IMG/VR virus record: IMGVR_UViG_3300032298_000463
Span: 1 to 22,765 of that record
DNA from: a virus
Strand: one strand, 5' to 3'
Length of the DNA: 22,765 bases
The position numbers and the translations under genes are program-made. The notes below the pieces were generated by a model that searched no databases, was not told the origin of the DNA, and saw only the letters and a list, made by a program, of their open reading frames with translations. Below are positions 15,195-21,951 of this stretch, one piece after another. How positions within the stretch are numbered: the first letter of the stretch is position 1; each line of letters starts with the position of its first letter.

Positions 15195-15770
15195 CTACGG
15201 GTTAAGTTTTTTCTGCTCTGTAACCCACTCTTGTAGAGCTTTTAATTGCTCTCTTATTTCCCAGCAGGTTCCGTAGTTTTGGACGATTGTTGTTGTGGCT
15301 CCAGAGAGTTTAACTTCGCTGGCTCCCGCATCAGAAGCTCTGGCGGGGTCGGGAAGCTGGTTTTCTGCGGCAGCATTGTGGAGCACGACGAAAGAATTAG
15401 GCAACTCACACTTAGTATCAGACTCTTTATTAACGTATTTGACAATTTCGTTTCCTTTTTCTTTAACAACTTGTATCCTATCTATATATTTAGTTACGAC
15501 TTTCGTCGAGACTTTTTCTGATTTAGCTTTTAATTCTGCAATCTCTGCATTAGTCTTGGCTACTTTTAATTGCCATGCTGCTTCATTAGCCAATCCACCG
15601 CATAAAAATACACTTAAAAGTAATAAGACAAATGATAATAATTGAATGGGTATTGCATACTTACCTATGAATGGTATAACCTTGAAGAATGTTGCTGCAA
15701 CTAAGGCAACAAAACTTGCTAGTGCAAGCCCATAAAAAATCCAATCTGGTACAAATGATAGTAACCACAT
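15195..15770 (-). CDS. Rz-like i-spanin, 191 aa
   Basis: The inner-membrane spanin that, with Rz1, fuses the two host membranes at lysis. It has two hydrophobic segments, about 10-30 and 42-62, then a helical coiled-coil periplasmic part with VKVAKTNAEIAELKAKSEKV and a Lys/Ile/Val region. The C-terminal segment GTCWEIREQLKALQEWV is the ending typical of phage Rz/gp18.5-type proteins. Two membrane segments rather than the single N-terminal one of lambda Rz is unusual. AGAGGA precedes the ATG. Rz1 is nested in another frame (15254-15445). It sits between the late tail genes and the nrd operon. Confidence 0.88.
   Translation of the reverse strand: MWLLSFVPDWIFYGLALASFVALVAATFFKVIPFIGKYAIPIQLLSFVLLLLSVFLCGGLANEAAWQLKVAKTNAEIAELKAKSEKVSTKVVTKYIDRIQVVKEKGNEIVKYVNKESDTKCELPNSFVVLHNAAAENQLPDPARASDAGASEVKLSGATTTIVQNYGTCWEIREQLKALQEWVTEQKKLNP
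15254..15445 (-). CDS. Rz1-like o-spanin lipoprotein nested inside Rz, 63 aa
   Basis: It lies wholly within Rz in a different frame. A hydrophobic signal (SLILSVSCLILSSC) ends at the lipobox LSSC, Cys21; the mature part of 43 residues is Pro/Ser/Gln-rich (FPTPPELLM, then QQQSSKTTEPAGK), as in Rz1 proteins that attach to the outer membrane. No ATG is available: TTG at 15445 with AAGGA upstream is the best start, and TTG at 15469 is an alternative. Composition and position make it hard to explain otherwise. Confidence 0.85.
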   Translation of the reverse strand: MSNTLIKSLILSVSCLILSSCSTMLPQKTSFPTPPELLMREPAKLNSLEPQQQSSKTTEPAGK

Positions 15771-15782
15771 GTTATTAATCCT

Positions 15783-16490
15783 CTATTCTAAAAATTCTAA
15801 AGTTGGTTTTCTTTTATACTTACTAAACACACCATATAATGTTTTTAATGGACAGCGTGCTTGATAATGTTTAGCTCCTGTGGCTGAAGCTAAGATATCT
15901 TTTAAGCCGTCTGTTAACTTAACTTCTTTGATCTTAACTACATCAGTAGGATCTTTTGTTACAAAGGTAAGATAGAATAATGGATCACCACGTTTAATTA
16001 TAATCTCTTGTCTTCTTTGTTTTAACTGTATAGCAAAATCTACTGGTCTCCACCAATCACTGATCTTAAATCTTCCTGGTATTACTCTAAAATCGTGGTG
16101 TGTTTCTTCAAACCATGGACCAGTCATAGTCATTTCAACTTCTTTATTTTCAGTAACGAATATCTGATGATAGTTTATAGACATTATTGGTTGGTCTGTA
16201 TCAGAATATTCACCGGCTCTCATATGAAAAAAGTCAAATGGTTGTACATTTGGTTGTACAAACTCGATTGTCCGTTTATCTGCATCAACTATAAAGTGCG
16301 CATTAAATGGAGACCTTACTACGAATGTATTACGTGTCAGATCTTTATTAGCTGGACATAACTTGTATTTATGATTTCCAGCTTTTATATGAGTGTCATA
16401 TAAACTGATTGGTTTCTCAGCAAAAAATGCCAAACCTTTTTGATAATCTGTTTCTAAATACGGAGCCCAACCAACAACAACTCTACTCAT
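15783..16490 (-). CDS. conserved phage protein, 235 aa, unassigned
   Basis: Mostly beta-strand, with aromatic and proline-rich segments: VVRSPFNAHFIVD, QPFDFFHMRAGE, YHQIFV, MTGPWFEETHHDFRVIPGRFKISDWWRPVDF and IIIKRGDPLFYLTFVTK. I recall similar proteins near 2OG-oxygenases in marine phages. The layout (a Trp-rich strand, then RGDPL) recalls DUF6065-like proteins, but this is a weak resemblance. It has no signal or membrane segment. ATG at 16490 overlaps the stop of the upstream oxygenase (TAATG) and has GGAG upstream, so it is in the same unit and could act with the oxygenases. Confidence 0.85.
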   Translation of the reverse strand: MSRVVVGWAPYLETDYQKGLAFFAEKPISLYDTHIKAGNHKYKLCPANKDLTRNTFVVRSPFNAHFIVDADKRTIEFVQPNVQPFDFFHMRAGEYSDTDQPIMSINYHQIFVTENKEVEMTMTGPWFEETHHDFRVIPGRFKISDWWRPVDFAIQLKQRRQEIIIKRGDPLFYLTFVTKDPTDVVKIKEVKLTDGLKDILASATGAKHYQARCPLKTLYGVFSKYKRKPTLEFLE

Positions 16491-17107
16491 TATACATACT
16501 CCAACCAGCCTGTCATGATGTATTTATCTTGTCCGCTTAATACTGGATTGCCTCTGTGTACATGAGTGAAATATGCTGGGAATATAATGACCTTTCCAGT
16601 TTCAGGTTTAACTCTGATGGCTTGATGTAAAAATTCTGTTTCTCCACCATCATCTATATCATTTAAGTATATGATATATGCCATCACCCTTCTCATATTT
16701 GCAACTCCGCTATTTTCTATGTGGAAGTTGTGATAACCCCCTCCATCTTTAGCATCATACTTTTGTATTTGCCAAGCTGTGACATCGTGCTTACTTAGAT
16801 ACTGATTAATTTGCCAGTATTCAGCCATGTATAAGTTATAGCATTCTTGCAAGTGTGTATTGCATTCGTATAAAAGATCTTTATAATAATGATATACGCC
16901 AAGTTCAATATCTCTGCTATTTTTAGCGGACTTGTTTACTTCTGCTGGTTTACCAACACCACCAACTCTGCCTTGTACAGATTTACCCATCTTATCCAAA
17001 TCTTCATAAGCTTCGATAATCTTTTGACAAGTTTTTGCGGGAAATCCAGTTGGAAACATCCCTATAAAATCTTTAAATTGTGGTTCATTTGATTTTAAAA
17101 ACTTCAT
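16490..17107 (-). CDS. 2OG-Fe(II) oxygenase, prolyl-4-hydroxylase-like, 205 aa
   Basis: The C-terminal half has the double-stranded beta-helix signature: YHNFHIEN (His129 and Glu131, an HxE in place of HxD), RRVMAYIIYLNDIDDGGETEF, VKPETGKVIIFPAYFTHVHRG (His182 or His184), and QDKYIMTGWLEY, where Lys195 or nearby should hold 2-oxoglutarate. Glu instead of Asp is known in this phage subfamily. The N-terminal third is a helical part rich in Lys. It probably hydroxylates a protein or another substrate; which one is unknown. It overlaps the next oxygenase by ATGA. Confidence 0.92.
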   Translation of the reverse strand: MKFLKSNEPQFKDFIGMFPTGFPAKTCQKIIEAYEDLDKMGKSVQGRVGGVGKPAEVNKSAKNSRDIELGVYHYYKDLLYECNTHLQECYNLYMAEYWQINQYLSKHDVTAWQIQKYDAKDGGGYHNFHIENSGVANMRRVMAYIIYLNDIDDGGETEFLHQAIRVKPETGKVIIFPAYFTHVHRGNPVLSGQDKYIMTGWLEYV

Positions 17108-17649
17108 GCTAAAAATCCTTTAACAGTCACAGTAAATCTAGGCACATTACATAGAATAGAAGGAGCTCTTGCAGTATGAGGTATAGTGGAATTGAATAGT
17201 ACAGCTCTACCTCCACGTGGTAATACAGATTGCTTTACTTCTAATAAATCATCTGAAAAAAACTGAGTCTCTCCTGCCCAATCTAATTGCCATTGCGGGT
17301 TTGCATACATTATCAAGGTAATAGCATCGCTATCTCTATCATCAGTGTGTACTGCAGTAGGAGTATAGGGGAAGTATACGTTGATGTAAGACCTATCTAT
17401 CTTAACATCTTTGTTATAGTGTTTCTTAACTAATGATGAAAGTACTTTATCAAGACCTATCATAGTTAACTCTTCATACGTTAAATTACATATGAACCTA
17501 GAAAGGTTGTGTTCACTAACTGAAGAAGCAGAATGACCAAAAGAAAACTTACTATTTTTACAAAAAGAAAATAAAGCTTCTTGATTACTATAGTCAATTA
17601 CATTATCTGCTACGTATATTTTTTCCGTTTTTGATATACGACCAAACAT
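17104..17649 (-). CDS. 2OG-Fe(II) oxygenase, 181 aa
   Basis: Facial triad as HTD (His101 and Asp103 from the chosen ATG) after NVYFPYTPTAV, then WAGETQFF, LPRGGRAVLFNSTIPHTARAPS with distal His158, and RFTVTVKG with Arg171 for 2-oxoglutarate. The start is uncertain: ATG 17649 has AAAGA 7 nt upstream; GTG at 17664 would add five residues and lengthen the overlap with the chaperone-like gene. It is the second of three oxygenases in this block, so a shared or successive chemistry on one substrate is possible. Confidence 0.9.
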   Translation of the reverse strand: MFGRISKTEKIYVADNVIDYSNQEALFSFCKNSKFSFGHSASSVSEHNLSRFICNLTYEELTMIGLDKVLSSLVKKHYNKDVKIDRSYINVYFPYTPTAVHTDDRDSDAITLIMYANPQWQLDWAGETQFFSDDLLEVKQSVLPRGGRAVLFNSTIPHTARAPSILCNVPRFTVTVKGFLA

Positions 17650-18085
17650 ATTGAAGTCTTTCACAAATGGTTAATTTAATTTCATCTCTATATGGTTCTA
17701 TAGGAAACTTTACATCATAAGGACTATCATACTTTTCGGGTAAGTCTCTTAGCTCTCGTCTGTATTTACTATATCTTTTTTGCATAACCTTATCTGGAAA
17801 ATCAAGTAACTGTGTATAGTCAGAAAGATTTAATGCAGTGTTTCTAATATTTCTTACACCATTCCAAGCTATCTGTAAATTTTTTGGATGATTTGGATCT
17901 TGAGATTCTGGTTTTTCAAATGTTCTAGTAGCAGGATTGAATTCATCTAAAATTTCTGGCTTAGGATAATAATCAGTAACATCATGATAGTAAATTCCAG
18001 GCTGTCCATAAGGAGCAGTAGGTGCTTCAAATATATATCTGACTATTCCAACATGTATTTCAGCCCACGTTTTCATGCTATCCAT
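17603..18085 (-). CDS. tail assembly chaperone-like protein, 160 aa
   Basis: Residues about 75-135 fit the phage tail assembly chaperone domain: VRNIRNTALNLSDYTQLLDF, then KRYSKYRRELRDLPEKY and FPIEPY, matching the known order Arg-Asn ... DWTQL ... Tyr-Arg-x-x-Leu-Arg-Asp-Leu-Pro ... Trp-Pro. The N-terminal half is beta-rich with Tyr/Pro (GIYYHDVTDYYPKPEIL). Such proteins fold or assemble tail fibres. It lies among the fibre genes, between two oxygenases. Start at 18085 overlaps the upstream stop by 8 nt; ATG at 18076 is an alternative. Confidence 0.82.
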   Translation of the reverse strand: MDSMKTWAEIHVGIVRYIFEAPTAPYGQPGIYYHDVTDYYPKPEILDEFNPATRTFEKPESQDPNHPKNLQIAWNGVRNIRNTALNLSDYTQLLDFPDKVMQKRYSKYRRELRDLPEKYDSPYDVKFPIEPYRDEIKLTICERLQYVWSYIKNGKNIRSR

Positions 18086-18656
18086 TTCTAATAAAGATCC
18101 TTTGATTTATTGTCCAACGAACTATTCCAGATTCAGTAGTTTTTATTTGAGTAACTTTATGTTGTTCATATGAAGGAAATATTAAACAGCAATTAGATTC
18201 TAGTTTTGGTTTATAGTTACCAAACACTAATTCTCCTCCATCAAAATCCGTGTCAAAAAACGGGTACACCAAAGATAAGACACTCTTATCATGATGTTCA
18301 TAATAACTTGAATCATTTCCGTATGCATGTAACATAGTATTATCCGCATTGGATAAGCCTATGTAATTTAAGAATGGATTCTTAGATCTATCTATTTTAC
18401 CATCAAAATATAATTTATAAACTTTGGTGGTTAAATCTAAGATCTTGCTTTCATGCCTTCTATTTTCATAGAGGATGTCTAGTGAATAGCTTTTTACATT
18501 ACCATTAGCTAATATTGATTCATGATGTTGATCTAATTGAACGTGTTCGTTCTTTATTAGATTGATTTCGTTTTTAATATCATTAAGTTCTGTGTCATCA
18601 AAGAAATCATATATGATGGTATGATAAAAAGGTTTCTCAATATATTTTATTTTCAT
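18078..18656 (-). CDS. 2OG-Fe(II) oxygenase, 192 aa
   Basis: Facial triad His121-x-Asp123 (YYEHHDKSVLSL), distal His166 (FPSYEQHKV) and Arg180 (GIVRWTIN). A DFDGGELVFG loop at 137-146 is typical of the fold. The N-terminal part is helical and acidic. It is the first of three oxygenases and directly follows the polyglycine adhesin, whose stop is 1 nt upstream. Substrate unknown; modification of a fibre protein or of a host surface polymer is an inference. Confidence 0.88.
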   Translation of the reverse strand: MKIKYIEKPFYHTIIYDFFDDTELNDIKNEINLIKNEHVQLDQHHESILANGNVKSYSLDILYENRRHESKILDLTTKVYKLYFDGKIDRSKNPFLNYIGLSNADNTMLHAYGNDSSYYEHHDKSVLSLVYPFFDTDFDGGELVFGNYKPKLESNCCLIFPSYEQHKVTQIKTTESGIVRWTINQRIFIRNG

Positions 18657-18657
18657 T

Positions 18658-19398
18658 TTACCAATTGATTACGACTCTTCCTGCACCACCGCCTGATCCT
18701 GGATTGCCGTTACCATCATATTGACCAGACGAATTGCTATATGGTCCACCCGCTCCGCCAGATCCAACAGCTCCATTTCCGCCATTTCCACCAGGTCCTG
18801 ATGTTCCCCAATTTCCGTTATTTGATGTAGAAGCTCCTTGAGATCCTGCAGTTCCGCCAGCAATAGCAGCTCCGCCTAATCCTCCCGCAACAGTACTACC
18901 TTTTCCTAAGCCTATTGCACTAGTGGGTTGTCCGTTTGAAGCAGCTCCGATTGAAGCCAATAGACCAACATACGTTGTACCTGCTCCTCCTCCGCCAACT
19001 CCCATGTTTGAACCACTACCGCCTTGAGATACTTGTACAAAATGAGTAGATCCACTTGTCACAGTAGCAGTGAAGTTGGCTGTGCCTGATCCACCACCAC
19101 CACCTCCACTAGCATATGCAGCATTATTATCGAAACTGTTTCGTGAACCGCTACCACCGCCACCACCGCCGCCGCCATAAAGTGTACCGCTAATTTCATA
19201 GACTCCAGTCGGTACAGTAAATGTTCCAGAAGTATTAAACGTTTGTGAACCAGGGCCTGGATAAGGTTGATGAACTTCTCTCCACACACCTCCGTTTTTA
19301 ATGTATACTCTACTAGTATCTTTCCAAACGCCAGATATTTTTACGTATACGTTCTTTATAAATCTCCAGACACTAGAATGTTTTACATGTATTGGCAT
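18658..19398 (-). CDS. glycine-rich tail-fibre adhesin, 246 aa
   Basis: The first 50 residues contain three copies of a VYVK-GVWK type unit (NVYVKISGVWK, RVYIKNGGVWR), seen at the start of phage tail tip proteins and likely the attachment part. From about residue 75 the sequence is glycine runs separated by short Ser/Asn/Ala segments, the pattern of T-even gp38 adhesins, whose polyglycine-II sandwich presents receptor-binding loops. It ends GGGAGRVVINW, a typical finish of phage glycine-rich domains. AGGGGAT lies before the ATG. The receptor-binding role is inferred from composition and from the neighbouring fibre genes. Confidence 0.88.
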   Translation of the reverse strand: MPIHVKHSSVWRFIKNVYVKISGVWKDTSRVYIKNGGVWREVHQPYPGPGSQTFNTSGTFTVPTGVYEISGTLYGGGGGGGGSGSRNSFDNNAAYASGGGGGGSGTANFTATVTSGSTHFVQVSQGGSGSNMGVGGGGAGTTYVGLLASIGAASNGQPTSAIGLGKGSTVAGGLGGAAIAGGTAGSQGASTSNNGNWGTSGPGGNGGNGAVGSGGAGGPYSNSSGQYDGNGNPGSGGGAGRVVINW

Positions 19399-19407
19399 AT
19401 TAATCCC

Positions 19408-20037
19408 CTATTCTTTAGGAATATCTTCTTTTATTTTTTTAATGGTTGATAGTATAGAGTTAAAATCTTCTGGTAACGGATTGCCTTTGCTTAAAGCTTC
19501 AACAGCATTAAACAATGCACCGAGTTGATCTCCTATCCCGATATTCCTTAAGTATTCTAATTTCCTTTTTTCTTTATAGTCGCCATTTATTACCCACGTA
19601 TTATTTATTTGATCCCAATGGTAACTTATTCCAAACGATTCTAAGTATGTATCCTTAGGGTGAAACGATGGAGCTTCTATCAAGTTTGGTTGTGGAAGTA
19701 CCTGTAGGCCAACGTAATGACCCTTCTCATTAACTGCATGTTTTAATTGAGGTGGTGGATCAAATTTCTCTGGAATTTTTTTATATTCTTTTAAAAAATT
19801 TTCGAGATAGTTATCATCATCTAGTTTGGATAAGAACTCGTTGATGAGTTTAATCTCATCTTCAGTTAAATGCTGATAGACTAATTCATCATTAACTTTA
19901 ACAACTTTTCTAACGTGTTCTGTTTCTGGCTCATAATAAAGATATGTAAAACTAAATTCTAGTGATGGCACACCTATAAGATCATAGGTAATATCGTTGT
20001 GCTTAACTTTGATTTCACTTGGAGAAATAACGAGCAT
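19408..20037 (-). CDS. XkdW-like phage tail protein, 209 aa
   Basis: The C-terminal motif EYLRNIGIGDQLGALFNAVEAL (residues about 162-183) fits the XkdW family, whose signature is IGDQLDxLW; in phages it marks proteins of the tail tip or fibre. The first 60 residues are beta-rich and the middle is charged and proline-rich (IPEKFDPPPQLK). It lies between the large fibre protein and the adhesin, 12 nt and 9 nt away. It may help assemble the fibre or form a connector. Ribosome site GGTG is weak. Confidence 0.8.
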   Translation of the reverse strand: MLVISPSEIKVKHNDITYDLIGVPSLEFSFTYLYYEPETEHVRKVVKVNDELVYQHLTEDEIKLINEFLSKLDDDNYLENFLKEYKKIPEKFDPPPQLKHAVNEKGHYVGLQVLPQPNLIEAPSFHPKDTYLESFGISYHWDQINNTWVINGDYKEKRKLEYLRNIGIGDQLGALFNAVEALSKGNPLPEDFNSILSTIKKIKEDIPKE

Positions 20038-20049
20038 GATGAATCACCG

Positions 20050-21951
20050 CTATGCAGTATACTTGTACCAAATATCTCCGTCTGATCCGCCGCTTGGATC
20101 ACTCGTTGAAACAGTCTTTACACCCTGTGAATTATAACCAGACGATTGCACATATGCTGTAGTTGCTATCTTTGTAGAACTATCTCCAGCAGTGGGAGTT
20201 GGTGCAGCTGTTGTACCTGTAAATGTAGGACTTGCAAACATAGTTGCTTTAGATTCATTAGTAACATTACCTAAACCTACCATAGTTGCCGTAATACCAC
20301 TAACCGTTCCTGTAAATGTAGGGTTTGCTAATGGAGCTTTAGTTCCTAAAGCAGTAGTTATAGTACTTGCATAATTTTGATCATCAGCTAATGCAGCAGC
20401 AAGTTCATCTAAAGTGTCTAATGCAGCTGGCGCATTTGATATCAAATTATCTACTGCAGTTTTTACGAATGCAGTAGTTGCTATCTGTGTAGTATTTGTT
20501 CCTGCATCGGCCGTCGGTGCGAGAGGTATACCAGTAAATGTAGGACTTGCTTTTTCGCCTTGTACGAATGCTGTAGTTGCTAGTTGTGTTGTGTTTGTAC
20601 CTGCACTTGCTGTTGGTGCAAGTGGTGTACCAGTAAATGTAGGACTATGTGTATATGCTCGTGAACCAGTATCTGATGACTCTGTATATAGTTCTGCTCT
20701 ACCAAATACTTTCCATGTTCCAGCATTACGAACTAGATTATATGTCCATACTGTCGTTTGGTTTGCAGTACCAGATGGGTAAACTCCACCTTCCCAAGTA
20801 ACTGCGACGTCAGTGCCAGCAATTTTTATTGGGCTAAGTGGTTTATATGGAGTAGAACCATTAGCTACGATCAACTTAATAGGAATAATCCTATCATTAT
20901 CTGTCGGTACGTTAGTAAAGTTTGGAGTAAAGTTCTGTGATATTGAACTATGATACCATGTAGAAGATGTTTTAAAGTCGTGTACAACAGTTAAACCAGC
21001 ACCAGTTTTTGTGCGAAGTGTTTCGACTAGTTGAGCGTGTGTAGTTTCTCCTTCTAATGTTATATTAGATAATCTAGCCTCTTCACTTAAAGCTACAGGA
21101 CCAGATCCTGTAGATGTATAAAAGGGTATGACAGTCGGTGAACTTGTACTAGAAGAATATACTGTATACTCATTACCGCCTTGATCGTTTGGTGAAGTAG
21201 AAAATGCATATTCAGTTATAGCGTTAATCTGTTGTATCCACATCGTGTATGATGTTTCAGGCAATAACGTGTAATTGGTGGTTGCAAGTAAATTGGAACC
21301 AAGAGTATTTACGATGGTAGCATTAGGACCAAAGTGTCCATAGGCAACGTGATCGGCTGTGATAGCAGTTTGCGAAGCTGTCCAAGTTGAACCCACTTGT
21401 ATAGCAAACCATGCTCTATTATCAGCACTGATAAACTTGGTTAAGTATAATGCAGATATTGGGTCTTCGCCAGTCGTAAACGTTATAAAGTTCTTAGCCG
21501 TGCCAGGTACTGTTACACCATCTAAATATCCATGAATAGTTAATCTAGGTTCACCTGATGCACCACCAGATCCTCCCAATAAACTATCACCGTACTCATC
21601 AACGATGTCTCCACCTGTAGGAAGGTATAATAATCCTGTAGAATCGAAGTTCCAGTTTTTTATGCCTGATGAAATAGTAACTTCATCAGCAGCATTAATA
21701 TTTAATGCATCATTAGTGTTTGAAATTTCAGGACCAACCCCAAAATTTATTTTACCATCAGCTGGAATTGTTAATTCGCCCAACCCGGCCACATCTTTAA
21801 ATGCAAATTCTGTAGAAGTACTATCTTGTTCTACTATAATCTTTACATCTTTATTAGATTTGACTGTTAAGTCTTCAAGAAACGTACTTCTGTTGATCGT
21901 TTCTCCAGAAGAAAATCTAATCTTTTTTATTGTTTTTGGTAATATTGACAT
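20050..21951 (-). CDS. large tail fibre or baseplate-attached structural protein, 633 aa
   Basis: The N-terminal 130 residues are beta-rich and end in ISSGIKNWNFDSTGLLYLPTGGDIVDEYG, a motif shared by many marine phage virion proteins. Middle region: Thr/Ser/Asn-rich beta structure. From about residue 436 come repeats of the phage tail-fibre type, SPTFTGxxxAPTA then TxxATTAFV, with spacers. The end DGDIWYKYTA is common in such proteins. It therefore belongs to the tail fibre or a fibre-like appendage. The ribosome site before ATG 21951 is weak. Confidence 0.88.
   Translation of the reverse strand: MSILPKTIKKIRFSSGETINRSTFLEDLTVKSNKDVKIIVEQDSTSTEFAFKDVAGLGELTIPADGKINFGVGPEISNTNDALNINAADEVTISSGIKNWNFDSTGLLYLPTGGDIVDEYGDSLLGGSGGASGEPRLTIHGYLDGVTVPGTAKNFITFTTGEDPISALYLTKFISADNRAWFAIQVGSTWTASQTAITADHVAYGHFGPNATIVNTLGSNLLATTNYTLLPETSYTMWIQQINAITEYAFSTSPNDQGGNEYTVYSSSTSSPTVIPFYTSTGSGPVALSEEARLSNITLEGETTHAQLVETLRTKTGAGLTVVHDFKTSSTWYHSSISQNFTPNFTNVPTDNDRIIPIKLIVANGSTPYKPLSPIKIAGTDVAVTWEGGVYPSGTANQTTVWTYNLVRNAGTWKVFGRAELYTESSDTGSRAYTHSPTFTGTPLAPTASAGTNTTQLATTAFVQGEKASPTFTGIPLAPTADAGTNTTQIATTAFVKTAVDNLISNAPAALDTLDELAAALADDQNYASTITTALGTKAPLANPTFTGTVSGITATMVGLGNVTNESKATMFASPTFTGTTAAPTPTAGDSSTKIATTAYVQSSGYNSQGVKTVSTSDPSGGSDGDIWYKYTA
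20180..20660 (-). repeat. tail-fibre sequence repeats
   Basis: A 17-20 nt unit recurs as (c)c(a/t)gtaaatgtagga, near 20216, 20310, 20531 and 20630, encoding the SPTFTG/NPTFTG units. The copies are similar enough to recombine. Confidence 0.75.

Follow-up and report, generated by a model that had tools for sequence, protein, structure and literature searches.

A glycine-rich tip protein encoded together with its own chaperone has been described for the Pam3 tail fibre gp24, whose chaperone is gp25, and for the S16 adhesin gp38 (PMC9608196). Pam3 gp25 embraces the glycine-rich tip of gp24 until folding and trimerisation, and gp25 is not found in virions (PMC9608196). A comparable pairing occurs in the stretch of DNA from an aquatic phage analysed here (the window), which is the complete IMG/VR virus record IMGVR_UViG_3300032298_000463 of 22,765 bases. 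In the window, genes for a tail fibre, a glycine-rich adhesin-like protein and a tail-fibre assembly chaperone are accompanied by three genes for oxygenases dependent on Fe(II) and 2-oxoglutarate (2OG), whereas the Pam3 paper reports no oxygenase. From the sequence comparisons below we modestly favour the view that this block is a fibre-maturation cassette, in which the oxygenases hydroxylate the fibre or adhesin before assembly.

Viral enzymes of this class are already known to modify surface proteins; mimivirus L230 and the PBCV-1 prolyl 4-hydroxylase act, or are predicted to act, on repetitive glycine-rich viral surface proteins. Cyanophage 2OG oxygenases are also known. They were present in 14 of 16 cyanophage genomes in a study that ascribed them to 2OG/nitrogen signalling or DNA repair (PMC3037559). 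A resemblance to human prolyl hydroxylase EGLN3 has been pointed out (PMC12774648), and the viral use of prolyl 4-hydroxylase has been termed 'cryptic' in a paper that mentions collagen in tail fibres (PMC9301287). Our search of the open-access literature found no report of phage fibre hydroxylation, and no paper in open-access text on 2OG oxygenases linked to fibre chaperones or on phage lysyl hydroxylase–glycosyltransferase fusions. Hydroxylation of fibres in phages is apparently an undescribed step.

Genes of the fibre–oxygenase block

The block lies at the right end of the window on the minus strand and consists, in order, of the fibre, p19408, the adhesin, oxyC, the chaperone, oxyB, oxyA and a protein encoded at 15783..16490. 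An earlier note on this DNA had described an alternation of adhesin, oxygenase, chaperone and oxygenase. All four genes were found where it had placed them, on the minus strand, but it had overlooked oxyA, the third oxygenase gene and the strongest match to PF13640. The 633-aa fibre protein (20050..21951) matched many phage tail-fibre PHROGs, with phrog_2631 as the best (E 1e-36).

The adhesin-like protein (246 aa; 18658..19398) contains N-terminal SGVW-type repeats, a glycine-rich body with conserved GGGGGGSG runs and a C-terminal VVINW, and is 58-87% identical to its relatives. Its N-terminus matched phrog_36019/25859, its score against Gly_rich_2 (PF21722) was 15.4 bits and fell under the 24.3-bit cut-off, and a profile search of solved proteins found no relative of it. 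Glycine accounts for 28% of all residues and 42% of the best 60, so that the label 'polyglycine' used in the earlier note is fair. As in gp38/gp24-type adhesins (39% glycine in the Pam3 domain), a domain of about 40% glycine with poly-Gly motifs adjoins a chaperone; by composition and gene context, the window protein may work like such a tip adhesin. The chaperone (160 aa; 17603..18085) follows the fibre and adhesin genes, scored 37.6 bits against PF16778 (Phage_tail_APC; cut-off 26.6 bits) and matched tail fiber assembly PHROGs (phrog_4912), all of which identify it as a member of this family. No relative of it was found in the bacterial genomes searched, and hence it points to no host.

All three oxygenases passed the PF13640 cut-off of 27 bits, oxyA (16490..17107) with 51.6 bits, oxyB (17104..17649) with 36.9 bits and oxyC (18078..18656) barely, with 27.8 bits. 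The HxD/E...H triad and the basic 2OG ligand were invariant in the alignment of each: H129/E131, H182 or H184 and K195 in oxyA, H101/D103, H158 and R171 in oxyB (10 sequences), and H121/D123, H166 and R180 in oxyC. Pairwise dN/dS for every block gene was 0.04-0.22 where dS could be estimated, including 0.05-0.22 for the oxygenases (0.05-0.19 for oxyC and 0.06-0.22 for oxyB); judged by these ratios, all three oxygenases are under purifying selection. The nearest solved proteins to oxyA were bacterial prolyl 4-hydroxylases (PDB 3itq/5hv0, E 1e-10). Although its catalytic domain resembles that of the Bacillus enzyme, oxyA and the cyanophage A-type homologues carry HxE in place of the HxD iron motif of prolyl 4-hydroxylase. 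We therefore did not assign oxyA as a prolyl 4-hydroxylase proper. Among solved proteins oxyC had a no more than weak match to PiuC (E 0.06), and its AlphaFold2 model (mean pLDDT 40) was too poor for the double-stranded beta-helix fold of the superfamily to be judged.

The genes from the adhesin to the last protein are tightly packed, with a 1-nt gap followed by overlaps of 8 nt (oxyC/chaperone), 47 nt (chaperone/oxyB, 17603..17649), 4 nt and 1 nt. The oxyB reading frame was listed to 17664. Because MFG is conserved across all relatives, the true start should be the ATG at 17649, and the overlap with the chaperone gene is then 47 nt rather than 62. The same overlap is present in the reading-frame coordinates of the related loci L009, L012, L015-L017 and L032. 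The overlap between a chaperone-like gene and an oxygenase gene, reported previously for this DNA, is thus present on both sides of the chaperone gene.

Conservation in related and distant phages

The close relatives were IMG/VR loci L009-L020 and L032, which represent six lineages besides the window; gene order was read as far as each contig reaches. Fibre (or a remnant of it), p19408, adhesin, chaperone, oxyB, oxyA and the 15783-16490 protein keep their order in all six. The p19408 protein (19408..20037, minus strand), a conserved companion of unknown function, lies between fibre and adhesin in every relative reaching that far. The 15783-16490 protein (minus strand; phrog_17480, E 2e-22), also of unknown function, closes the block and was present in every relative reaching that far. 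Its distant cyanophage homologues are located away from fibres, and its AlphaFold2 model (mean pLDDT 43) was too poor for use. The gene for oxyC was present in L009, L012-L014 and L016 and cleanly absent from L015, L017-L020 and L032, where the chaperone comes immediately after the adhesin. Given this clean absence, comparison of these loci shows oxyC to be an optional cassette, placed precisely between the adhesin and chaperone genes. Its dN between L012 and L016 was 0.10, lower than the 0.14-0.26 of its neighbours, and this lesser divergence suggests exchange.

The same elements were found in isolated cyanophages. Seven Kyanoviridae (S-RSM4, S-CAM3, Sf-CH11, ACG-2014h, S-H9-1, S-H9-2 and Syn1) carry a fibre, an A-type oxygenase, a chaperone and a C-type oxygenase, followed in five of the seven by a B-type third oxygenase annotated in the deposited records as 'DNA endonuclease V' or hypothetical. 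We rejected the endonuclease name for the B-type genes, which match PF13640 (30.9 bits for the S-RSM4 gene) and align to oxyB through the iron motif. More generally, the family names 'DNA endonuclease V' (phrog_274) and 'DNA endonuclease' (phrog_2297) are a probable mis-annotation spreading into RefSeq phage records, since the members found here match 2OG-Fe(II) oxygenases.

In a maximum-likelihood tree of 49 phage oxygenases, the window A protein grouped with the cyanophage gene preceding the chaperone, C with the gene following it, and B with the 'endonuclease V' gene. The cyanophage loci (Syn1_038-042 and S-RSM4 SRSM4_204-211) therefore resemble the window in having the three oxygenase subfamilies, a fibre and a PF16778-type chaperone in overlapping or abutting genes. 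They differ in their order, which is A-APC-C-B rather than the C-APC-B-A of the window, in their larger chaperone (275-315 aa compared to 160) and in having been deposited as auxiliary metabolic genes, 'DNA endonuclease V' or hypothetical; no fibre role for their oxygenases has been proposed in the open literature searched. The label 'beside fibre/chaperone' also clustered on the tree, requiring 8 changes compared to a shuffled mean of 16.5 (0 of 500 shuffles as low), a result to which near relatives contribute. As the content was retained while the order changed, the sequences point to the A, B and C oxygenases, fibre and chaperone being a functional unit, and we consider this the strongest evidence that they work together. 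With the order kept in six further lineages and the content in isolated cyanophages, the arrangement of the block is, on comparative grounds, more than chance. S-RSM4 has a second cluster (L079:142-6165; 90.5-97.5 kb of the record), in which a Gly_rich_2 protein, a small gene and about seven oxygenase-like genes lie in this order on one strand, and we count this cluster in favour of the fibre reading.

These comparisons bear on a different explanation, namely that auxiliary genes have piled up in a hypervariable region and serve 2OG/nitrogen signalling or the repair or modification of nucleic acids. The abundance of 2OG oxygenases in cyanophages, for which 2OG/nitrogen stress or DNA repair was proposed (PMC3037559), agrees with this idea, as do relatives of the enzymes near replication and tRNA genes. 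However, the published proposals do not explain the linkage to fibre and chaperone as we read it from the genomes. Three subfamilies staying with fibre and chaperone across distant phages and in different orders would be unaccounted for, as would the pairing with collagen fibres described below, and we regard this explanation as quite unlikely.

Collagen-like fibres and the choice of substrate

A sister module makes the idea of a fibre substrate concrete, since homologues of the window enzymes occur in loci with collagen fibres. The S-CAM9 fibre gp222 has 59 Gly-X-Y triplets (76 bits against Pfam Collagen); after it come gp221, gp220 (an A-type oxygenase), gp219 (a C-type relative) and gp218, a fusion protein. 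The domains of gp218 resemble procollagen galactosyltransferase (COLGALT1; E 1e-19), the glucosyltransferase of LH3/PLOD3 (E 5e-33) and the lysyl hydroxylase of mimivirus L230 (E 1e-8). S-8S56 shares this arrangement; in Roseobacter phage CRP-6 there are a collagen fibre, a tail-fibre chaperone and the fusion. Such COLGALT–PLOD–lysyl-hydroxylase fusions, deposited as hypothetical, were found at L021:2414-4255 (S-CAM9 gp218), L023:7926-9695 (CRP-6 gp58), L024:2964-4829 (S-8S56) and in L056-L069. All 11 IMG/VR contigs with the fusion and enough upstream sequence, several of them near-copies, have a collagen fibre before it. In the single-cell virus AG-345-L05, a collagen of this kind accompanies B- and C-type oxygenases, and the fusion is on another of its contigs.

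Lysines of the collagens in fusion contigs occupied the Y position, never the X position (for example 22/0, 23/0, 109/0 and 70/0), and always occurred as X-Lys-Gly. X-Lys-Gly is the known site for collagen lysyl hydroxylases. Phage collagens at loci lacking the fusion (L012 and S-SCSM2R) contained no lysine. In relatives of the window, further structural genes that lie downstream of the block also contain lysine-free Gly-X-Y repeats (L012:14788-16192). Homologues of the window enzymes are thus found at loci in which the fibre is evidently the substrate. The fusions, S-CAM9 gp218 and CRP-6 gp58, are predicted, like the mimivirus and PBCV-1 enzymes, to act on repetitive glycine-rich surface proteins, and in both the phage fusion loci and the window the fibre adjoins a hydroxylase.

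Alternatively, the oxygenases may have a different protein substrate, for example the chaperone, p19408, the 15783-16490 protein or, in the host, a translation factor. EF-Tu and ribosomal proteins can be targets of bacterial prolyl and arginyl hydroxylases, p19408, the 15783-16490 protein and the adhesin are equally constant, and the adhesin has no obvious acceptor motif. We nevertheless consider a substrate other than the fibre improbable, as the collagen-fibre module indicates the fibre itself and neither p19408 nor the 15783-16490 protein was found beside the cyanophage cassettes.

A third explanation would place the target on the host surface; modification of a glycan (lipopolysaccharide, capsule or a released sugar) could prevent superinfection or help adsorption or release, and the enzymes would for that reason lie in the host-recognition island. 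Marine T4-like fibre islands also contain glycosyltransferases and surface genes (PMC7029224), proposed polysaccharide or secondary-metabolite clusters of cyanophages include 2OG enzymes (PMC7824862), and some relatives of the B-type enzymes and of the 15783-16490 protein lie near nucleotide-sugar genes. The block in the window, however, has no sugar gene, its oxygenase genes interleave and overlap with the fibre chaperone gene and recur with it in different orders, and oxyA resembles protein prolyl hydroxylases. A host-surface target is the weaker reading compared to fibre hydroxylation and is in our view unlikely.

The earlier note's proposal that the oxygenases act on fibre proteins before assembly is supported in part and, once speculative, has become the best-supported reading, given the three subfamilies found with fibre and chaperone in distant phages and the collagen-fibre loci. 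Several results weigh against it. No acceptor residue was found in the adhesin, and adhesins with and without oxyC differ at only six alignment columns, with no acceptor motif. The window contains no Gly-X-Y run of at least 5 triplets and no PLOD-like gene, and the block contains no glycosyltransferase domain; unlike the fusion loci, it is not a member of the PLOD-type module. S-WAM2 has a chaperone and a polyglycine protein but no oxygenase close to them, its oxygenases lying elsewhere in the genome, and C48C1 and CRP-4 have fibre and chaperone with no oxygenase at all. Conversely, ACG-2014h and S-H9-1 carry the cassette with no polyglycine protein nearby, so the tie between adhesin and oxygenases suggested by the note is not a strict one. 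All three subfamilies also occur away from fibres (in RN05-S, in S-SCSM2R and in the head/tail and uvsY region of Syn33), and members are found near replication, nrd or head genes. Syn33 is only a partial counterexample, since its 33.5-38.5 kb region (L078:703-4012) has an oxygenase, a Gly_rich_2 protein, a small conserved protein (phrog_1787) and another oxygenase. Whole-genome proximity to oxygenases was modest (p 0.005 for chaperone, 0.04 for glycine-rich and 0.12 for collagen genes) in genomes that were not drawn at random, and we do not rely on the weak glycine-rich and collagen tests. Conserved oxygenases without adhesins nearby, which the note had said would count against its proposal, therefore exist for some subfamily members; this does not settle the matter, as enzymes of that kind could act in trans. 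From these distributions we conclude that the oxygenases are an accessory to fibre assembly rather than a necessity, and that their link is to fibre and chaperone, not to polyglycine as such.

The remainder of the window contains T4-type genes (NrdA/NrdB, glutaredoxin, RNase H, DenV-like and SegE-like) and a run of nine tRNA genes (Glu, Cys, Trp, His, Arg, Leu, Arg, Met and Ser) at 13-792 on the minus strand. Adjacent to the block, an Rz-like spanin gene (15195-15770, minus strand) has a small lipoprotein reading frame with lipobox LILSSC (15254-15469, minus strand) nested in another frame, and the two look like an Rz/Rz1 pair.

A proposed model for fibre maturation and its implications

Conserved linkage and the collagen-fibre module make hydroxylation of the fibre or adhesin the best explanation of the block, and the recurrence of the oxygenase set with fibre and chaperone in distant cyanophages makes it probable that the fibres of these phages are hydroxylated ahead of assembly. 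In the model that we propose, the fibre, the glycine-rich tip adhesin, the dedicated chaperone and the three oxygenases would be made together, and, being co-translated from overlapping genes, enzyme and client would stay close to each other. By analogy with Pam3, the chaperone would hold the new adhesin or fibre unfolded or unassembled, while A, B and, where present, C would hydroxylate exposed side chains of the held protein. The modified fibre would then trimerise and the chaperone depart. Hydroxylation may stabilise the glycine-rich or repeat structure, or it may tune receptor binding. The sequences themselves show the order and overlaps of the genes, the catalytic motifs, the purifying selection and the fact that distant phages retain all three oxygenases together with fibre and chaperone; the substrate, the residue and the consequence of hydroxylation we infer by analogy. 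Syn1, S-RSM4, S-CAM9 and CRP-6 are cultured phages.

More tentatively, aquatic phages, including marine ones, might widely hydroxylate their own tail fibres, and in the collagen branch also glycosylate them, by a dedicated set of chaperone-coupled Fe(II)/2OG oxygenases, just as animals modify procollagen. We put this generalisation forward as a possibility that we do not yet favour. If it is true, fibre assembly, and hence infectivity, would require oxygen, iron and 2-oxoglutarate from the host, and phage host recognition would gain an oxygen- and iron-dependent post-translational layer. The 2OG oxygenases, which have been assigned to nitrogen signalling or DNA repair, are among the commonest unexplained cyanophage genes; should they hydroxylate fibres, an extensive group of 'auxiliary metabolic genes' would be virion-maturation enzymes, and phages would join animals and giant viruses as producers of modified collagen-like proteins.

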